Shown piece after piece: positions 1 through 7,959 of a stretch of 7,959 bases of DNA; position 1 is the stretch's first letter, and every line of letters begins with the position of its first letter. The DNA is taken from positions 1-7,959 of the forward strand of contig PKWD01000018.1 of assembly GCA_003131945.1 (NCBI GenBank). The letters run 5' to 3'. The notes under the pieces are model-generated. The model ran no database searches. It was not told the DNA's origin and was given only the letters and a program-made list of their open reading frames with translations. The position numbers and the translations under genes are program-made. This stretch comes from Acidimicrobiaceae bacterium. Lineage in GTDB: Bacteria > Actinomycetota > Acidimicrobiia > Acidimicrobiales > UBA8190.

Positions 1-143
1 CCCGAGTCGGGGTTGTGCTCCCAGGCCCACCAGTCATTGTTGACGTTGCCCCCCTCGATCTGGTGCGCCGCGGTGGCGGTGCCCCAGAGGAACCCTTCGG
101 GGAATTCGATCCTCGAGCCGTTCGAATCCTGGTCGGCGGTCAT
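1..143 (-). CDS. Glycoside hydrolase family 1 (beta-glucosidase-like), N-terminal fragment
   Basis: This is the first 47 codons of a gene that leaves the window at base 1. After a short polar N-terminus the protein reads IEFPEGFLWGTATAAHQIEG, then N-N-D-W-W-A-W-E-H. This is the hallmark start of GH1 beta-glucosidases and related glycosidases: the first barrel strand (F-P-x-G-F-x-W-G-x-A-T-A) and the substrate-binding Gln-Ile-Glu-Gly. The family removes terminal sugars, usually beta-linked glucose or galactose, from di- and oligosaccharides by a retaining mechanism using two glutamates. Those glutamates lie beyond the fragment, so activity and specificity cannot be judged. The ATG at 143-141 is the natural start, 12 residues ahead of the conserved block. 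No signal peptide is seen, suggesting a cytoplasmic enzyme. It is divergent from the thioesterase gene, with 65 bases between starts. Family assignment is firm; the exact substrate is unknown. Confidence 0.9.
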   Translation of the reverse strand, partial: MTADQDSNGSRIEFPEGFLWGTATAAHQIEGGNVNNDWWAWEHNPDS

Positions 144-149
144 GGCCGC

Positions 150-155
150 AACCTA
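150..155 (-). promoter_or_regulatory. Candidate -10 box (TAGGTT) for the GH1 gene
   Basis: On the minus strand TAGGTT matches the actinobacterial -10 pattern TANNNT and lies only 6 bases before the ATG at 143. Transcription would then begin at or next to the start codon, giving a leaderless mRNA, which fits the lack of a Shine-Dalgarno sequence. No clear -35 box is seen. Confidence 0.45.
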
Positions 156-196
156 GACGCCCAACGGGGGTGTCGCCCAGGTCGTCCCGGGCCTGC

Positions 197-202
197 CAAC
201 AT
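197..202 (+). promoter_or_regulatory. Weak candidate -10 box (CAACAT) for tesB
   Basis: CAACAT keeps the two most conserved positions of a -10 element (A at the second, T at the sixth) and ends 6 bases before the GTG at 209. That is the same geometry as the better boxes of neighbouring genes. There is no Shine-Dalgarno sequence here. Alone this match is weak. Confidence 0.25.
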
Positions 203-208
203 GGCACG

Positions 209-1066
209 GTGAGTGAGTCCCTCGACTTTTTGGTGCACCTCCTCGACCTCGAACCCATCGAGGTGAACATCTTTCGGGGCATTCAACCTTCAGAAGAGCG
301 CCAGCGCGTCTTCGGCGGCCAGGTGGCCGGCCAGGCCCTGATGGCGGCCGGCCGCACCGTCGAACATGGCCACGTCCATTCGCTGCACTCGTACTTCCTA
401 CGGCCCGGTGACCCCACCACCCCGATCCTCTACGAGGTCGACCGCATCCGCGACGGCAAGTCGTTCACCACCCGGCGGGTGGTGGCCATCCAGCACGGTC
501 GGGCCATCTTCAACATGGCCTGCTCCTTCCACGACGCAGAGCTCGGTCTCGAGCACCAATTCCCCATGCCCGACGTCCCCGGGCCCGAAGAACTCCAATC
601 GTTGCCCGAGCGCTTGGCCCCGTGGCGCGAGGAGCTGGCCGACTGGTTCGTCCGGCCCCACCCGATCGACCAGCGTTACATCGGGGACCTGCCGTGGAAG
701 CAGACCAAAGGGGACTTGCCCTACCAGCGTCTGTGGATCCGAGCCGACGGGGAACTGCCCGATGACCCGCTGCTGCACGCCTGTGTGGCGACGTATGCCT
801 CGGACATGTCGCTGTTCGACACCATGCTCGCCCCCCACGAGGTCAATTGGGACGACGCCGAGTTCATGGGAGCCAGCCTCGATCACTGCATGTGGTTCCA
901 CCGACCGTTCCGCGTCGACGAGTGGCTCCTCTACGACATGGACAGCCCCAACGCCTTCGGCGCCCGAGGGCTGGCCCGTGGCTTCCTCTTCAAACGCGAC
1001 GGCACCCTCGTGGTGTCGATGGTCCAGGAAGGCCTGATGCGCCTCGTACCCCGCGCCGCCCCGTAG
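209..1066 (+). CDS. tesB: Acyl-CoA thioesterase II (TesB family)
   Basis: The enzyme hydrolyses acyl-CoA to free fatty acid and CoA, with a broad chain-length range in this family; it is a cytoplasmic double-hotdog protein. With the GTG start at 209 the product is 285 residues, matching E. coli TesB (286). An upstream in-frame GTG at 170 would add 13 residues of unconserved sequence, so 209 is preferred. Family landmarks: Q-R-V-F-G-G-Q (about 31-38), H-S-Y-F-L-R-P-G-D (60-68), Y-A-S-D (196-199), D-H-C-M-W-F-H-R-P-F (225-234) and V-Q-E-G-L-M-R near the end. The E. coli catalytic Asp204, Thr228 and Gln278 map with a constant offset of 5 to Asp199, Ser223 and Gln273, so the threonine is replaced by serine, a conservative change. 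The gene stands alone: divergent from the GH1 gene and convergent with gltA, 31 bases apart. A role in acyl-CoA turnover is inferred from family only. Confidence 0.93.
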   Translation: MSESLDFLVHLLDLEPIEVNIFRGIQPSEERQRVFGGQVAGQALMAAGRTVEHGHVHSLHSYFLRPGDPTTPILYEVDRIRDGKSFTTRRVVAIQHGRAIFNMACSFHDAELGLEHQFPMPDVPGPEELQSLPERLAPWREELADWFVRPHPIDQRYIGDLPWKQTKGDLPYQRLWIRADGELPDDPLLHACVATYASDMSLFDTMLAPHEVNWDDAEFMGASLDHCMWFHRPFRVDEWLLYDMDSPNAFGARGLARGFLFKRDGTLVVSMVQEGLMRLVPRAAP

Positions 1067-1076
1067 GTCGTCTCCT

Positions 1077-1092
1077 GCCGGCGGCCGCCGGC
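1077..1092. terminator. GC-rich palindrome between convergent tesB and gltA
   Basis: GCCGGCGGCCGCCGGC is a perfect 16-base inverted repeat occupying half of the 31-base gap between the two converging stop codons. It could fold into a hairpin on either transcript and act as a shared terminator. No T-run follows on either side, so it is not a classic intrinsic terminator. Confidence 0.35.
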
Positions 1093-1097
1093 GTCAG

Positions 1098-2369
1098 TCA
1101 GCGGTTGTCGATGGGGACGTAAGGCCGCTCGTCCACCCCGATGTACAGCTGGCGCGGACGGGCGATCTTGGAGTCCTGGTCGAGGAGCTCCTGCCAGTGC
1201 GCCAGCCAGCCGGTAGTGCGGGGAATGGCGAAGAGGACGGGGAACATCTCGAGCGGGAACCCCATGGCCTGGTAGATCAGACCCGAGTAGAAGTCGACAT
1301 TGGGGTAGAGACGGCGCGACGTGAAGTACTCGTCGGAGAGGGCGATCTCCTCCAGCTTGAGGGCGATGTCGAGCAACGGGTTCTTACCCGTCACCGTGAA
1401 GACCTCATCCGCCGTCCGCTTGATGATCTTGGCCCTCGGGTCGTAGCTCTTGTAGACCCGGTGACCGAATCCCTGCAGCCGTCCGCCCTCACCCGTCTTG
1501 ACCGACTCTACGAAGGCCGGGACGTTCTCGATCGACCCGATCTCGGTCAGCATCCGGATGACGGCCTCGTTGGCCCCTCCGTGACGCGGGCCGTACAGCG
1601 CCGCGCAGGCCGCCGCGCAGGCCGAGTAGGGATCGGCATGAGAGGAACCGACGACCCGCATGGCCGTCGTCGAGCAGTTCTGCTCATGGTCGGCATGGAG
1701 AATGAAAAGGATGTCGAGGGCACGCGTGAGGATGGGATTGGGCTCGTAGCGTGGCTCGGCCACCTTCCACATCATCGACAGGAAGTTGGAACAGAAGTCG
1801 AGGGAGTTGTCCGGATAGACGAAGGGCATACCGACGCTGAAGCGGTGGGCGGCGGCGGCCAGGGTCGGCATCTTGGCGATCAGCCGGGTGATCTGCTTGT
1901 GCCGGGACTCCGGATCGAAGATCTCCTTGGCGTCCAGATAGAACGTCGACAGCGCCGCCACCGCCGATACCAACATGCCCATCGGATGGGCGTCGTAATG
2001 GAAGCCCTCGAGGAAGCGCTTGCGTACGTTCTCGTGGATGAACGTGTGCATCGTGACCTCGTTGCGCCACGCCTCGAATTCCACCGGCGTCGGCAACTCA
2101 CCGTGCAGCAACAGGTACGCGACCTCGAGATACGTCGAGTGTTCGGCCAGCTCCTCGATGGGATAGCCGCGGTACCGCAGGATGCCTTCGTCGCCATCGA
2201 GGTAGGTGATGGTGCTCTCACACGCCGCCGTGGACACGAATCCAGGGTCGTAGAACCAGATCCCCGGCAGGAGCTTCGACCATTCACTGGCCGCCACCCC
2301 TCCGTGGTCGATGGGGATTTCGAGCTGGTTCCCCGTCCGGTTGTCGATGATGGTGATGCTCTCGGCCAC
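1098..2369 (-). CDS. gltA: Citrate synthase (type II, GltA-like)
   Basis: This enzyme condenses acetyl-CoA and oxaloacetate to citrate, the entry step of the TCA cycle. The product is 423 residues, close to E. coli GltA (427). The three catalytic residues are visible: His263 in P-R-H-G-G-A-N, His303 in G-F-G-H-R-V-Y-K and Asp359 in N-V-D-F-Y-S-G, corresponding to E. coli His264, His305 and Asp362. Other signatures are the N-terminal domain with S-T-A-A-C-E-S-T-I-T-Y-L-D-G (46-59), H-Y-D-A-H-P-M (124-130) and H-A-D-H-E-Q-N (225-231). The extra N-terminal beta domain and the length mark the hexameric, Gram-negative-like type II group, also common in actinobacteria. The GTG start at 2369 is supported by an AGGAGGT ribosome site 9 bases upstream. 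A promoter precedes it, so it is probably transcribed independently of the gene ending at 2449. The gene looks intact. Methylcitrate synthase is a related alternative, but length and motifs favour citrate synthase. Confidence 0.96.
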   Translation of the reverse strand: MAESITIIDNRTGNQLEIPIDHGGVAASEWSKLLPGIWFYDPGFVSTAACESTITYLDGDEGILRYRGYPIEELAEHSTYLEVAYLLLHGELPTPVEFEAWRNEVTMHTFIHENVRKRFLEGFHYDAHPMGMLVSAVAALSTFYLDAKEIFDPESRHKQITRLIAKMPTLAAAAHRFSVGMPFVYPDNSLDFCSNFLSMMWKVAEPRYEPNPILTRALDILFILHADHEQNCSTTAMRVVGSSHADPYSACAAACAALYGPRHGGANEAVIRMLTEIGSIENVPAFVESVKTGEGGRLQGFGHRVYKSYDPRAKIIKRTADEVFTVTGKNPLLDIALKLEEIALSDEYFTSRRLYPNVDFYSGLIYQAMGFPLEMFPVLFAIPRTTGWLAHWQELLDQDSKIARPRQLYIGVDERPYVPIDNR

Positions 2370-2378
2370 GACGCTCGG

Positions 2379-2385
2379 ACCTCCT
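2379..2385 (-). promoter_or_regulatory. Ribosome binding site of gltA (AGGAGGT)
   Basis: AGGAGGT on the minus strand is a near-perfect anti-Shine-Dalgarno match, 9 bases before the GTG at 2369. It fixes that start. It is the only strong Shine-Dalgarno sequence I found in the left part of the window. Confidence 0.85.
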
Positions 2386-2402
2386 GTGACGTTCCCGCTT
2401 CG

Positions 2403-2432
2403 ATCCTAGGGCTACGCCCGTCGATTGGTCAC
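2403..2432 (-). promoter_or_regulatory. Candidate gltA promoter (GTGACC - 18 - TAGGAT)
   Basis: On the minus strand GTGACC (2432-2427) and TAGGAT (2408-2403) are 18 bases apart, resembling TTGACC and TANNNT of the main sigma factor. Transcription would start near 2396, giving a leader of about 27 bases that contains the ribosome site. The box lies in the 79-base gap after the stop codon at 2449, so gltA need not depend on its upstream neighbour. Confidence 0.5.
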
Positions 2433-2448
2433 CCCGGGACGGGCCCGA

Positions 2449-3621
2449 TCACCCCGAACGTGGCCTCGTAGACGTGGTCGACGGCTTGCTCGTCGGTGTG
2501 GTCGGCGTCTTGGTGGTCGATGTGGTGGCCGGTTTCGTCGTCGATGTCGTCGTGGTCGTCGTCGGCGGCGGGAAGGCCGCCACCCGCAGGGACAGAGATG
2601 CCGAGGCGCCGGCGCCTGCCTCCGGCGGCGTGACCGTGATGCCCAGGACGTAGGACGTCCCCGGCCGAACCGACAGCGGCGGCGGCGACAACGCCACCGA
2701 ATCGCCGGCCCCGATGTCCGTGCTCATCCGCACCGAAGTCGTGGCCCGGGTCGTGGCTTCGGGACCCGTGCCCTGGGGGACAGCCGTCACCACCACCCTC
2801 ACCCCGGCTTCGTCGACGTTGCCCCGGTCGGCCAGCACGACCGTGACGTGCAGAGTCCTCGTCGGGGGCAGCACGCTGACACCGGACGCCCCCGGTACCG
2901 AGGCCGGGTCCGTCGAGAATGTCCCGAGGGCCAGCCGGTGCACCGGTGCGAGCGTTGCCGAACCCACCAGCGCGGCCACGAGCCGCCCCAGTGCCGCATC
3001 GTCCCAAAGGCCGGGATCCGACATCCAGGTCGACGCCGGGAGCAGGGCCGAGCCCGGTGCCCGGCGCAGCGTCCGGCGGCAGGCCGCCCAGGACGCATCG
3101 GCTGATTGGAGAACGCTGCGTGCGCCGTCGAGCATCTGGGCCGCCGCCGCCTCGTCGCCGCCACCGAGACCGCGCCGCCCGCCGAGGAGGCGCCCGAGGG
3201 CACTTTGCACCTGGCCCGCCGCACGCCGGCGGTCGTCCATGGCCGTTGCGCACCGGCCGTCGGCGTCGCCGGACGGCACCGGCGGGGTGAGCGCCGCGAA
3301 CCGGCGTTCGTCCTGCGCCGTGTCAGCGGCGATCAAGCTGAGATCGGAGAAGAAGGTCGTCCGTTCGAGCGACGCTCCGTTTCTGATGATGGCATTCAGG
3401 GCCGAGCTCGACGCGTTCGATTGCGTCACGATCGGTGTGGCCAGCACGGCGAAGCTGCGATCGACCGTGCGCCTGTCGGGTCCCGATGCAGGCCCGATCT
3501 GAGAGACGGCGCCCACGGCAAGCACCACGAGGGCGGCCACCACGACAAAGGGGGCGGCCACCCGGGCCACGCCCCGCCCCACGCCACGTCGCCGTCGGAG
3601 CCGGCGTCGTTCCCCGACCAC
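2449..3621 (-). CDS. Unrecognised membrane-anchored secreted protein with Thr-rich tail
   Basis: I do not recognise this 390-residue protein. It has a very basic N-terminus (R-R-R-L-R-R-R-R, 5-12), one hydrophobic segment (about 22-40) that would act as an uncleaved anchor or signal, and an extracellular part. Residues about 55-235 are Ala/Arg-rich and probably helical, with two cysteines (124 and 181) that could form a disulfide. Residues about 250-348 alternate hydrophobic beta-strand patterns (T-L-H-V-T-V-V-L-A-D-R-G-N-V-D, then Y-V-L-G-I-T-V-T-P-P), like a CARDB or Ig-like beta-sandwich. Residues 352-388 are nearly all Thr, Ser, Pro and Lys, as in flexible or wall-spanning tails. The GTG start at 3621 is the only ordinary start before an in-frame stop at 3666. 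It is divergent from the LCP ligase gene with 98 bases between starts, so shared regulation and a cell-wall role are plausible but unproven. It does not look like a canonical lipoprotein (no lipobox). Confidence 0.75.
   Translation of the reverse strand: MVGERRRLRRRRGVGRGVARVAAPFVVVAALVVLAVGAVSQIGPASGPDRRTVDRSFAVLATPIVTQSNASSSALNAIIRNGASLERTTFFSDLSLIAADTAQDERRFAALTPPVPSGDADGRCATAMDDRRRAAGQVQSALGRLLGGRRGLGGGDEAAAAQMLDGARSVLQSADASWAACRRTLRRAPGSALLPASTWMSDPGLWDDAALGRLVAALVGSATLAPVHRLALGTFSTDPASVPGASGVSVLPPTRTLHVTVVLADRGNVDEAGVRVVVTAVPQGTGPEATTRATTSVRMSTDIGAGDSVALSPPPLSVRPGTSYVLGITVTPPEAGAGASASLSLRVAAFPPPTTTTTTSTTKPATTSTTKTPTTPTSKPSTTSTRPRSG
2458..2568. repeat. Low-complexity tract encoding the Thr/Ser/Pro tail
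   Basis: The plus strand is dominated by GTCGTC- and GTGGTC-like triplets, which read on the minus strand as runs of ACC and ACG threonine codons (residues 352-388 of the secreted protein). It is coding low complexity, prone to length change by slippage, not an independent element. Confidence 0.7.
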
Positions 3622-3628
3622 CGCCAGG

Positions 3629-3634
3629 ACCCTA
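3629..3634 (-). promoter_or_regulatory. Candidate -10 box (TAGGGT) for the secreted-protein gene
   Basis: TAGGGT on the minus strand fits TANNNT and ends 7 bases before the GTG at 3621, so the transcript would start at the initiation codon. No Shine-Dalgarno sequence lies at the usual distance, in agreement with a leaderless mRNA. Confidence 0.45.
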
Positions 3635-3705
3635 TCGGTCGTGGCCCGACCAGCGAGAGCCGATCACCCCGAGCCGGGATACCCGGAACGCGACACGGCC
3701 ACCAC

Positions 3706-3711
3706 TACACT
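3706..3711 (+). promoter_or_regulatory. Candidate -10 box (TACACT) for the LCP gene
   Basis: TACACT fits TANNNT and ends 8 bases before the GTG at 3720. The intervening bases CGCCTCCC hold no Shine-Dalgarno sequence. A leaderless transcript beginning at the GTG is the simplest reading. No -35 consensus was found 16-18 bases upstream. Confidence 0.5.
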
Positions 3712-3719
3712 CGCCTCCC

Positions 3720-5282
3720 GTGCCCGAGAGCACCCCCGCCACGCCTCCCTCCGTCTACGCGCGCGGCGATGTCCGCCGCAAGAGGCGACAACGCCTCGTG
3801 AGGCGTCTGGTCCGCGTGGGCGCCCTCGTCATCGCCCTCGTCGTGGTCGTGGCCGGGTCCGCCATCGGTTACACCGAATACCGGAACCACCAGATCGACC
3901 ACGTCCAGGTGGGCGATCTCCAGGCCGTGCCCCCCTCCGGGGTGGAGAACATCGTCCTCGTCGGCTCGACCTCACGATGCGCCCTCAAGCAGCAGAATCC
4001 CGCCTTCGGGCTCTGTTCCGACGGCGTCACCGGGGTCAACAGCGACGTGGTGATGATCCTGCACCTCAATCCGAAGACCGGCACCGCCTCGATCCTCTCC
4101 ATCCCCCGGGACCTCTTCGTGCCCAACGCACGGGGCTCGGAGCCGAACAAGATCGATGCCGCCCTGGCACAGGGGCCCGAGGTCCTCATCAAAGCCATCC
4201 AGGAGGACTTCGGCATCCCCATCCAGCACTACGTCGAGTTGAATTTCGACAGCTTCCAGAACGTCGTCAACGCCTTGGGCGGCATCAAGATGTACTTCCC
4301 CATGCCCCTCTACGACGCCGAGTCCTCGCTCAACATCTCGACCGCCGGCTGTCACCTCCTGAACGGCTTCGAGGCTCTGGCCGTGGTGCGGGCCCGCCAC
4401 CTCCAGTACAAGCCCCCCCGCGTGAAGACGAACGACCGGGCCGCCTGGCCCTATGACCCCGAGAGCGACCTGAGCAGGATCCGACGCGACCACGAATTCC
4501 TCCGGGTCCTGGCCACCGCCGTGTCGACCAGGGGGCTCAGCAACCCCGTGACCGACAACGACCTCCTCGGCGCCGTGGCCCCCCAGCTCGAGGTGGACTC
4601 CAGCTTCTCCCTGGGCGACATGCTCGGGACCGTCCTCACCTTCCACGGCGTGAACCCGAACTCGGCGCCCCAGCAGACCATGCCGGTCATCGTCGACACC
4701 GAGAACTACCTGGCCGGCGGCTATGACTACGGCAGCGTCGAGCTGACCAGTCAGCCCCAGGATCTCCAGGTCGTCGACAACTTCCTGGGCCTCGCCGCCA
4801 ACCGCGACACCATGACGAGCAAGCTCCTCCCGGCCGCCTCCGGCATCACCGTCTCGGTTCTGAACGGCACCGGCATCAGCGGCCAGGCGGCGGCGACGGC
4901 AAGCGCGCTGCGGGCCCTCGGTCTCGACATCGTCGGCACCGGGGATTCCCCGCCCGTGGGCGCCGTGTCCGAAACGACTGTCACCTACTCCTCCGGCCAT
5001 GAGGCGGCCGCCGAGCGGGTGGCCCATGACATCAACGGCGCCGTCGTCATGGGTCTCGAGACCACCTCCCAGGGCGCCGATGTCACCGTCGTCACCGGCT
5101 CCGACTTCGCCGTCATCGCCCCGACCACGCCGTCCTCCACCGGCGCCACGACACCGGCCTCCACCGGGACAGGCGCCGCCTCGGTCGCCTCGGCCGTTCT
5201 CGCCCCGCCTTCGCCGGCGACCCAGAAGCTGGCCCCCTTCGACCCTCGTGCCTGCACGGCTTCGGGAGGCGAAGGATCCTGA
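3720..5282 (+). CDS. LytR-CpsA-Psr (LCP) cell-wall ligase with LytR_C domain
   Basis: LCP proteins transfer lipid-linked glycopolymers (teichoic acid, capsule, arabinogalactan) onto peptidoglycan outside the membrane. This 520-residue protein has a short basic cytoplasmic N-terminus, one membrane segment (about 33-50), an LCP domain (about 75-270) and a LytR_C domain (about 375-445, opening I-T-V-S-V-L-N-G-T-G). It ends in a Ser/Thr/Ala/Pro-rich tail. LCP motifs seen: N-I-V-L-V-G-S-T-S-R (77-86), S-D-V-V-M (108-112), L-S-I-P-R-D-L-F-V-P (126-135), K-I-D-A-A-L (144-149), N-A-L-G-G-I (184-189) and D-L-S-R-I-R-R-D-H-E-F-L (250-261). Oddities: Thr84 replaces the usual first metal-binding Asp, an insertion with Cys87 and Cys99 follows, and R-D-H stands for the common R-Q-Q. 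The frame is open from 3435, but a GTG at 3720 gives the normal topology and avoids overlapping the divergent gene. The actual polymer substrate is unknown. Confidence 0.92.
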   Translation: MPESTPATPPSVYARGDVRRKRRQRLVRRLVRVGALVIALVVVVAGSAIGYTEYRNHQIDHVQVGDLQAVPPSGVENIVLVGSTSRCALKQQNPAFGLCSDGVTGVNSDVVMILHLNPKTGTASILSIPRDLFVPNARGSEPNKIDAALAQGPEVLIKAIQEDFGIPIQHYVELNFDSFQNVVNALGGIKMYFPMPLYDAESSLNISTAGCHLLNGFEALAVVRARHLQYKPPRVKTNDRAAWPYDPESDLSRIRRDHEFLRVLATAVSTRGLSNPVTDNDLLGAVAPQLEVDSSFSLGDMLGTVLTFHGVNPNSAPQQTMPVIVDTENYLAGGYDYGSVELTSQPQDLQVVDNFLGLAANRDTMTSKLLPAASGITVSVLNGTGISGQAAATASALRALGLDIVGTGDSPPVGAVSETTVTYSSGHEAAAERVAHDINGAVVMGLETTSQGADVTVVTGSDFAVIAPTTPSSTGATTPASTGTGAASVASAVLAPPSPATQKLAPFDPRACTASGGEGS

Positions 5283-5295
5283 GCCAGCGGGCCCC

Positions 5296-6115
5296 CTGAG
5301 CCGTCGGCGCCTCCGCCGCAGCCCTAGCTCTGGTGGCCGGTTGCGCTGGAGCCCGTCACGCTTCGGGCGGGACGAGCCGGCCAGCCACGCACCACGCCAC
5401 TACGACGGCGACGACGCTCGGGTCCACCCCCACCACCCTCCAGGTCGTGCCCTGTTCCTTTGATGGCCCCACCCGAGCGGGCCCTGATCACCGCCACTCC
5501 CACCGCCGTCACCGTAGGTCAGGGACTGCGGGTCTCGGGAACCGACTGCCGCGGCGCCGGTGACCAAGCCCACGTGGGGATCCAGGGTGGATACGACCCC
5601 GATGGCGGGAACGTCGGTCCCTGATTCCTGGCACCAACGGCTCATGATCTGTCGTCATTACCGTGGCCGACGTCACCCCACCGGGTTCCGTGGCCGTCAG
5701 TGCCGGCTGCATGTTCGTGGACAGGACCGTCTTCGCCTACCCGTCGGTACAGATCCAGGTGACGACGTACCGGCGCCTACAGGTCTTGCCCGGCTCCACC
5801 GTGCCGGCCGGGTCCGATCTGCGAATCTCGCCCGTCGGACTCTGTCCCACGCCGGCTCGGGCTGGACCCGTACTTCGCCGAGGTAGTTCTCGAGCAGACC
5901 GGACCACACCCTCTCGTCGTGGCCGGGACCAACCCCGGGATCAACGCATGAGGCAACTGGTCGACGACTTTGCCGGTACCGGCCGGCACCCCGCCGGGTC
6001 GTTACGTCCTGGACGTCTGTGCATGGTCCACGAGGCCTACGTGGCCTATTACCAACCTGTGCCGGTCACAGTCGGCAGACCCTCGAGACTGAGTCGACCC
6101 GAGGCCGCCGACTGA
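5296..6115 (+). pseudogene. Frameshifted lipoprotein with Ig-like repeats
   Basis: A secreted lipoprotein can be read only by switching frames. A basic start S-R-R-R-L-R-R (from CTG at 5296, perhaps once GTG) is followed in another frame (5300-5462) by a hydrophobic stretch ending in the lipobox L-V-A-G-C (Cys codon 5342-5344) and a Thr-rich linker. Next comes A-T-P-T-A-V-T-V-G-Q-G-L-R-V-S-G-T-D-C (5463-5621), then D-S-W-H-Q-R-L-M-I, then T-P-P-G-S-V-A-V-S-A-G-C (from 5651). Then P-G-S-T-V-P-A-G-S-D-L-R-I (about 5785-5830), a stretch with an in-frame TGA at 5949 before G-N-W-S-T-T-L-P-V-P-A-G-T-P-P-G-R-Y, and last Y-Q-P-V-P-V-T-V-G up to the stop at 6113. These are two Ig-like beta-sandwich repeats of a type common in actinobacterial surface proteins. 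It starts 14 bases after the LCP stop, so it was probably in that operon. About six shifts and one stop mean either a decayed gene or poor sequence. Confidence 0.7.
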
Positions 6116-6133
6116 CATGGGCGAGCGCACGCA

Positions 6134-6183
6134 CGGCCCGGGCCGACAACAGCCACGGCGCCCGGTCGGTACGGCAACCGGGC
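6134..6183. terminator. Hairpins between the broken lipoprotein gene and the sqdB fragment
   Basis: The 96-base gap between these convergent genes holds a perfect 12-base palindrome CGGCCCGGGCCG (6134-6145) and a 7-base-pair stem GCCCGGT/ACCGGGC (6160-6166 with 6177-6183, 10-base loop). Either could end transcription from both sides. No T-run follows, so support is structural only. Confidence 0.3.
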
Positions 6184-6211
6184 CCGGGGCGTCGTCGTCG
6201 TTTTCAGATGT

Positions 6212-6451
6212 TCAGCGTGTGATGACGCCGGCGCTGGGCCGCAGCGAACTGGCCGTGCTCCGCCACTGGACGGTGGGCCGGATGGCCGCCGGGTCCACCC
6301 TGGCACGGTGACGGTCGACCACGGCCAGGAGCGAGCGGATGGTCGCCGGCTCGAGAAGATGGGGGACGAGCCCGAGATCGAGCAGTTTCGTGTGAGCGGC
6401 CCGGTAGTAGTGCTCTTCCTTCTCGGTTCTGGGATCGACGAGGTGTTCGAC
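6212..6451 (-). CDS. sqdB: UDP-sulfoquinovose synthase, C-terminal fragment
   Basis: These 79 codons plus TGA match the C-terminal end of UDP-sulfoquinovose synthase (SqdB/SQD1), the NAD-binding extended short-chain dehydrogenase that makes UDP-sulfoquinovose from UDP-glucose and sulfite for sulfolipid synthesis. The fragment reads V-E-H-L-V-D-P-R-T-E, then K-E-E-H-Y-Y-R-A-A-H-T-K-L-L-D-L-G-L-V-P-H-L-L, and later R-H-R-A-R-V-D-P-A-A-I-R-P-T-V-Q-W-R. The family signature P-R-x-E-x-E-E-H-Y-Y-x-A-x-H-T-K-L-x-x-L-G-L-x-P-H and the R-V-D-x-x-x-I-x-P-x-V-x-W tail are clear from memory of plant SQD1. Upstream of 6451 the homology stops and dehydrogenase sequence in another frame takes over. The Rossmann domain and catalytic Tyr-Lys are therefore missing and the piece cannot be functional. 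Sulfolipid-related glycosyltransferases would be expected nearby, but none is present. Confidence 0.82.
   Translation of the reverse strand, partial: VEHLVDPRTEKEEHYYRAAHTKLLDLGLVPHLLEPATIRSLLAVVDRHRARVDPAAIRPTVQWRSTASSLRPSAGVITR
6430..6451. other. Junction joining two unrelated genes at a short shared sequence
   Basis: Read on the minus strand, these bases make sense in two frames. One gives A-S-N-T-S-S-I-P, the conserved end of the dehydrogenase NAD-binding region. The other gives V-E-H-L-V-D-P-R, the entry to the sqdB tail. Right of the segment only the first family is recognisable, left of it only the second. The overlap of roughly 20 bases is the likely point of joining, by assembly error or recombination. 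Confidence 0.75.
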
Positions 6452-6819
6452 GCAAAGATCGCGTCGTTGCTGACGACCGAATCGTCGAGTGACGCGAAAA
6501 CCGCGAGCTTGGCGGCCTTGTCCTCCACGACCGCTTCGACCACCAGCTCGCGGTCTGCTAGCGCTCCCAGATCGTCGGTGTAGGTGAGTCGTGAGAGCGC
6601 TTCCTCGGCGTCGCCGCTCTCGAGCTTGCCGCGCGCCACCGCTCGCTCGAGTGACTGGGCGATGCGATCCTCGGCGCGCTTCGCGGCCGGCGTGTTCGCT
6701 TCGACCAGCGTCACGGCCAGGCCTGCCCTGGCGCAGACCTCGGCGATCCCGGAGCCCATGATGCCGCCGCCTACAACCCCGACTCGTTCGACGGGGACGG
6801 GACTCTCTCCGTTGCTCAT
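6430..6819 (-). CDS. 3-hydroxyacyl-CoA (3-hydroxybutyryl-CoA) dehydrogenase, N-terminal fragment
   Basis: The family oxidises L-3-hydroxyacyl-CoA to 3-ketoacyl-CoA with NAD, or the reverse, in beta-oxidation, butyrate or polyester metabolism. The 130 recognisable residues start at ATG 6819 and cover most of the NAD-binding Rossmann domain. They include V-G-V-V-G-G-G-I-M-G-S-G-I-A (13-26, with G-x-G-x-x-G at 17-22), Glu40 at the end of the second strand where the adenosine ribose binds, E-A-V-V-E-D (95-100), and S-N-T-S-S-I-P (124-130). Related enzymes are about 285 residues, so more than half is lost, including the catalytic His-Glu region (H-F-F-N-P) and the helical C-terminal domain. The frame stays open to 6049, but its last 126 residues are low-complexity Pro/Arg/Ser sequence made by reading the sqdB fragment and flanking DNA out of frame. 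The product as written would not be active. No Shine-Dalgarno sequence is evident. Confidence 0.85.
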
Positions 6820-7066
6820 CGGACTGGCGTGCCTGGGCCTAGACCCATGAAACTAGTAGAAGCTCCGATAGTCGGATCATCTCATCGATCGCCGCGTCGC
6901 CGAGCTCTCCTACCCGCTCGGCGGCAAGGAGCTCAGCAGCGTTCGGGCGTCTCGCGCGCTGACGAGGCGCTGCGGAAGAGACTGATCGGCGGCTCCGCGG
7001 ACCGCTGCGCCGGCCCGCATGGAGCGGCCGGGTTCCGTCCCCGCTCGCTGCTAGACCGTGCTACCG
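6820..7066. other. Intergenic region between divergent dehydrogenase and recN
   Basis: I see no convincing gene in these 247 bases. The minus strand is open from about 7060 to a TAG at 6841-6839 in one frame and ends with a plausible helical sequence (A-A-I-D-E-M-I-R-L), but no usable start lies upstream of that single ATG. A short inverted sequence, CCGATAGTCGG (6867-6877), could be an operator. No clear -10/-35 pair stands out for recN or for the dehydrogenase. Confidence 0.4.
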
Positions 7067-7959
7067 ATGCTGCTCGAGCTGACCGTCCAGAACCTCCTCT
7101 TGATCGAGGACGCGCGCCTCGAGCTTGCTCCCGGCCTCAACGTCATCACCGGCGAGACGGGCGCGGGCAAGACGGTGCTGGCGCACGCGCTCGACCTGCT
7201 GCTCGGTGGGCGGGCGAAGCCCGGAGTGGTGCGACCCGGCAGCTCCGAGGCCTACGTCGAGGGGATCTTCGAGCTGCCCGCGGGACTCCGCAGCGAGCAT
7301 CTCTCGGCCGATGCGACCGAGCTCGTGCTGGCCCGGCGCGTCGGTGCCGACGGCCGCACGCGCGCCTATCTCGGCGGGCGCTCGGTCACGGTCGGCGAAT
7401 TGCGCGACCTGGCCGGCGAGCTGCTGTCCTTCTACGGGCAGCACGAGCATCGCAAGCTGATGCTCTCCGCGGCCCAGCTCGACATCCTCGACGGCTCCGC
7501 CGGGCCCGGGCAGATCGAGCGCCGCGCCGCCTGTGCTGCGGCCTGGAACGCAGTGCGCGAAGCGCGCACCGAGCTGGCGCGCCTCGACGAGCTGGCCGGC
7601 GCGCGCGAGCGCGAGCTCGACCTGCTCGAGTTCGAGTTGCGCGAGATCGAGGAGCTCGACCTGCAGCCGGACGAGCGCGAAGCCCACGTCCTCGACCGTG
7701 ACCGGCTGCGGAACATCGAGGGACTGCGGCTTGCGGCCTCCGCGGCCGAGCAGGCGCTTGCCGGTGATGAAGCCGGTGCGCTGGCGGGACTCGTGGCGGT
7801 GAGATCGAGCCTCGACGGCGTGCGCCACGTCGACCCCGAGCTGGCCGTCCTCGCCGAGCGCGCCGGTGCCCTCGCGCTCGAGGGCGAGGACCTGCTGAGC
7901 GATCTGCGCCACTACGCCGACGGCCTCGAGGCGGAGCCGGGACGGCTCGAGCAGATCGA
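7067..7959 (+). CDS. recN: DNA repair ATPase RecN, N-terminal part
   Basis: RecN is an SMC-like ATPase that acts early in repair of DNA double-strand breaks. The window holds 297 of the usual 550 or so residues before the sequence ends. The start M-L-L-E-L-T-V-Q-N-L-L-L-I-E-D is typical of the family. The Walker A loop is G-E-T-G-A-G-K-T (29-36, with Thr where many RecN have Ser), and the Q-loop region is S-F-Y-G-Q-H-E-H-R-K-L-M (121-132). From about 150 onward, Glu/Arg/Leu/Ala heptad-like sequence forms the coiled-coil arm (E-R-E-L-D-L-L-E-F-E-L-R-E-I-E-E-L). The ATG at 7067 fits the family; a GTG at 7058 in frame would add only three residues. No strong ribosome site is seen. Codon use (many GCG, almost only CGC for Arg) differs from genes left of 6430. 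The C-terminal signature and Walker B lie outside the window. Confidence 0.94.
   Translation, partial: MLLELTVQNLLLIEDARLELAPGLNVITGETGAGKTVLAHALDLLLGGRAKPGVVRPGSSEAYVEGIFELPAGLRSEHLSADATELVLARRVGADGRTRAYLGGRSVTVGELRDLAGELLSFYGQHEHRKLMLSAAQLDILDGSAGPGQIERRAACAAAWNAVREARTELARLDELAGARERELDLLEFELREIEELDLQPDEREAHVLDRDRLRNIEGLRLAASAAEQALAGDEAGALAGLVAVRSSLDGVRHVDPELAVLAERAGALALEGEDLLSDLRHYADGLEAEPGRLEQI

Follow-up and report, generated by a model that had tools for sequence, protein, structure and literature searches.

Background

Chimeric contigs have been described as a failure of metagenome assembly (PMC7299287), and the inter-genome chimeras treated there are the closest counterpart of the contig analyzed here. 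The window (the whole stretch of DNA under analysis, 7,959 bases) resembles those chimeras in that more than one genome lies on a single contig with abrupt changes of closest relative, and in that its seam at 825/826 falls within a homologous gene, at a word common to the relatives of both parents. However, it differs from them at 6425-6430, where the parents are non-homologous and no such exact common word was found.

The two genes broken at 6425-6430 belong to described enzyme families. For 3-hydroxybutyryl-CoA dehydrogenase (NCBIfam PRK07819.1), the intact 293-aa protein P0002 (2 contigs, longest 24,285 bases) scores above the cut-off. The window carries the first 130 residues of this enzyme on the minus strand (6430..6819; 130/130 identical to P0002), cut at the seam; in place of the remaining 163 residues of P0002 it has synthase sequence that is out of frame, plus downstream sequence. 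For UDP-sulfoquinovose synthase (NCBIfam NF041015), the intact 397-aa protein P0121, which represents a cluster of 35 members with a longest contig of 151,746 bases, scores 475.6 bits, under the curated cut-off of 575. Its last 70 residues and stop occupy 6212..6424 on the minus strand (70/70 residues identical, at 6215-6424), and its 327 upstream residues are absent from the window. The window bases before EKEE are dehydrogenase sequence, save for five or six unmatched bases.

Results

Regarding the join itself, an earlier note on this DNA described a frame switch on the minus strand from a dehydrogenase fragment to the tail of UDP-sulfoquinovose synthase, and this switch is present. The N-terminal part of a 3-hydroxyacyl-CoA dehydrogenase (Pfam 3HCDH_N, E 1.1e-34) begins with a start codon at 6819 and extends as far as SNTSSIP, a motif with its final codon at 6430-6432, and the synthase tail continues in a different minus-strand frame to a stop codon at 6212-6214. 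The same note described an overlap of about 20 bases between the two genes. Two frames are indeed readable over 6430-6451 (SNTSSIP in one, VEHLVDP in the other), but the overlap is not confirmed: the 21 bases at 6431-6451 belong to the dehydrogenase.

Base-by-base comparison with relatives of each parent locates the boundary. The dehydrogenase gene of the metagenome-assembled genome (MAG) palsa_651 is identical to the window at 2/20 bases over 6405-6424, 0/6 over 6425-6430, 20/21 over 6431-6451 and 8/9 over 6452-6460, whereas the corresponding values for 11 synthase loci (10 of the 30 returned by a synthase search of 397 genomes, plus L097) are 16-20/20, 1-3/6, 11-15/21 and 0-5/9. Identity to the window over 6431-6451 is 10-17/21 in 20 loci from the family of genome G001, and some of these loci are closer to it than the 11 other synthase loci. 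At the residue level, P0121 reads IDHVEDPRV beyond its last 70 residues where the window reads VEHLVDPRT, a string found in 0/120 synthases among the matches listed. Among the same 120 matches, 118 carry the HYY anchor (P0153 and P0214 lack it and were left out of the count), and the window's T after DPR occurs in none of these 118, all of which have V, while its V before DPR occurs in two. Judged by these matches and residue counts, 6431-6451 is dehydrogenase sequence and the synthase match stops at 6424, leaving a seam at 6425..6430 in which five or six bases fit the known relatives of neither parent; base 6430 may be a synonymous dehydrogenase change.

An exact word of about 20 bases common to relatives of both parents was not found at 6430-6451, the longest common words being 6-8 bases when palsa_651 was compared with five synthase loci over 70-base stretches around the join. 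The in-register resemblance of synthase genes to the 21 bases is unusual: when 4 million pairs of 21-mers were drawn at random from the two regions, a fraction of 8.5e-5 reached at least 15/21 identical bases, for an interval picked post hoc. Gapped local alignment of the two parents over the 70-base stretches around the join gives an unremarkable score of 12, which 13% of 4000 random pairs reached.

On the left-hand side, segment B (826..6424) extends from the remainder of an acyl-CoA thioesterase gene to the synthase tail and includes citrate synthase (1098-2369, minus strand; Pfam), a 390-aa protein without a Pfam match (2449-3621, minus strand) and a LytR-CpsA-Psr protein (about 3720-5282, plus strand; Pfam). 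This thioesterase-to-synthase order is kept on one contig both in G195 and in G406, a genome of family f45 from the same order as G001; DNA identity between the window and G406 is 77% over 163-5284 and 79% over 6212-6450. The synthase of G406 is 97% identical to P0121 (397 genomes searched). A search with the synthase tail, in which the query was padded but only the tail counted towards the score, passed 731 of 907 candidates. Among the 120 listed, P0121 is the best match, and all matches with a stated organism are Acidimicrobiales. The synthase is also continuous through the join position in 20/20 loci fetched from G001's family, in which 58 of 150 genomes matched; this count leaves out L003, which holds only synthase residues 393-435, and L011, a repeat of L001.

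On the right-hand side, segment C (6431..7959) is Solirubrobacterales DNA, with identity to palsa_651 (PKXY01000028.1) of 96% over 6431-6884, a block that begins exactly at 6431, and 97% over 7032-7959. It also contains the N-terminal part of RecN (7058..7957, plus strand), which runs off the contig and matches TIGR00634 with E 1.1e-59, under the full-length cut-off, as expected for a fragment. Among 30 RecN loci in genome_contigs, the closest is that of the Solirubrobacterales MAG palsa_651 (97% protein identity), followed by one at 75%. The dehydrogenase of palsa_651 is intact (293 aa) and flanked by NAD kinase and RecN. After the 130 shared residues, P0002 continues with IVELAT where the window reads EPRRKS. 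In a protein search with the fused open reading frame (8000 candidates scored), the only fused protein among the 120 matches listed is P0001, whose sole contig has 7959 bases, the same as the window. The other 119 include 114 dehydrogenases bearing SNTSSIP (the remaining 5 lack this motif and were left out), and the fused EP follows it in 0/114. When 61 genomes around palsa_651 were queried with 6431-7100, 45 matched, with close similarity over the dehydrogenase part only in palsa_651's own genome; this query begins at 6431 and adds nothing on the join itself.

A second seam lies within the thioesterase gene. Segment A (1..825) comprises the start of a beta-glucosidase-like gene on the minus strand, a name that comes from reading the L011 open reading frame rather than from a family search, together with the N-terminal portion of the thioesterase. 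The segment is 100% identical to contig C20 of G001 (family f1), and the two sequences first differ at 826. Over 826-1066, identity to G001 is 72%, and that to G406 climbs from 73% (170-780) to 86%. The mosaic thioesterase gene (170..1066, plus strand; Pfam Acyl_CoA_thio) is split in the same way at the protein level: over residues 1-218, identity is 100% to G001, 76% to G406 and 73% to G195, and over residues 219-298 it is 79%, 90% and 86%, respectively. Over a C-terminal stretch of 72 residues, listed proteins such as P0248, P0255 and P0318 score 64/72 versus 44 for P0241, the bearer of G001's C-terminus (among 120 thioesterases listed); a full segment-B thioesterase protein was not found among these 120 matches. 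The exact run at this seam is 29 bases (797..825) in both G001 and G195 (family f45) and 20 bases (803-822) in G406. That G001 itself is the chimeric side is disfavoured, as residues 219-298 are closer to G406 than to G001 while residues 1-218 are fully identical to G001. The citrate synthase gene is 82.3% identical to G001, 82.5% to G195 and 85.3% to G406, values that alone do not separate the families.

Discussion

The nearest relative of the window switches abruptly at 6424/6431 and again at 825/826, and uninterrupted copies of the broken genes occur among the relatives of both parents (P0002, P0121, L012 and the 20/20 loci of G001's family). With a probability of about 0.95, the reported join is an assembly or library artefact, that is, a chimeric contig of at least three bacterial genomes and no real feature, in which DNA of one actinobacterium became attached to DNA of a distantly related one. 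Genome A (1-825) would be a close relative of G001, genome B (826-6424) a relative within family f45 whose synthase is P0121, and genome C (6431-7959) would carry P0002 and be closely related to palsa_651, with both seams presumably formed during assembly or library making and not in a cell. The chimeric join of two genomes put forward in the earlier note thus receives strong support, as the sides differ in their closest relatives and both broken genes occur intact elsewhere with protein identical up to the join. Searching the two halves separately, as the note had proposed, places the right half with Solirubrobacterales palsa_651 and the left half with family f45, whose named relatives are Acidimicrobiales. 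Beyond the 120 homologues listed, with P0001 as the only joined form, the other genome searches matched the two sides separately. A single gene with a frameshift was also considered and rejected, the two families being unrelated and the sides matching different genomes.

How the join arose is a separate matter. The cause suggested earlier was an assembly misjoin at a short exact overlap, with about 20 bases common to both genes. Such an overlap would account for the two families being readable in different frames over 6430-6451, and the in-register resemblance of synthase genes to the 21 bases (10-17/21), rare among random pairs, is in its favour. However, these bases match the dehydrogenase parent, and P0121, although identical to the window up to 6424, then reads IDHVEDPRV and not VEHLVDPRT; by the genetic code, these two strings permit at most 16/21 identical bases (hand calculation). 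The window's T is foreign to all 118 anchored synthases among the 120 matches listed, and the longest common exact words in the five tested loci are far from 20 bases, which makes an exact-overlap misjoin improbable. For the precise cause of the reported seam, we infer that chimerism within a read or a library molecule, or an assembly path drawn through erroneous reads, would be more likely, given that an exact overlap was not seen and that five or six bases are unmatched. The seam at 825, in turn, is likely a path switch at a word common to homologous genes, as suggested by the 29-base word seen in relatives of the parents.

A real rearrangement in one organism, by transfer or through illegitimate recombination that added a few filler bases, could likewise have truncated both genes. 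Natural end-joining junctions can also show a few filler bases and imperfect similarity, and the extra stretch at 6885-7031 of segment C relative to palsa_651 is consistent with such an event. Nevertheless, both arms are the ordinary neighbourhoods of two different lineages out to the contig ends, both broken genes occur elsewhere in intact form, the join is absent from every other listed homologue, and the same contig holds a second inter-lineage seam. A rearrangement or deletion in a real genome, raised earlier as the alternative, is not needed by the data and is highly improbable. The same very low probability applies to its fullest form, a real exchange between two distant actinobacterial lineages, in which the synthase tail and the dehydrogenase head were linked through a short filler where their bases are imperfectly similar. 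The genome concerned would also have gained, in the recent past, the stretch that is identical to G001.

Under the preferred reading of a chimeric contig, the window should not be cited in support of a gene fusion, a gene transfer or a gene neighbourhood, and P0001 is probably an artefact entry in the protein collection. As biology the join is ordinary and matters only as a warning on this contig. An apparent two-frame overlap can be mostly resemblance, and comparison with intact parents decides which gene owns the bases.

Additional features of the parental segments

Within segment B, about 930 bases (5284-6212) separate the LytR-type gene from the synthase tail. The corresponding distance is about 150 bases in G406, and in G195 the matched blocks lie about 100 bases apart. 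The stretch in the window reads as one lipoprotein-like gene over shifting frames with stops and is perhaps a pseudogene. A source for 5290-6211 was not found among the genomes searched, which gave short matches only: in 17 genomes within family f45, and in 33 of 397 genomes across the order, where the best match covers 35 bases (E 1.8e-6). The 390-aa protein encoded at 2449-3621 has 30-36% identity to its neighbours in G001's family, and the position of its gene between citrate synthase and sulfoquinovose synthase is conserved.

Within segment C, the additional stretch between 6885 and 7031 relative to palsa_651 includes two pieces of an NAD kinase gene (6885-6960), which correspond to L012 4566-4620 (91%) and 4945-4964 (100%) and abut at GTTCG, with about 320 intervening bases missing. 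These pieces sit in the gap between the dehydrogenase and RecN, where the flanking matches in palsa_651 are separated by only about 35 bases. They could be left over from an NAD kinase-RecN order like that of L013, or may mark a further misjoin.
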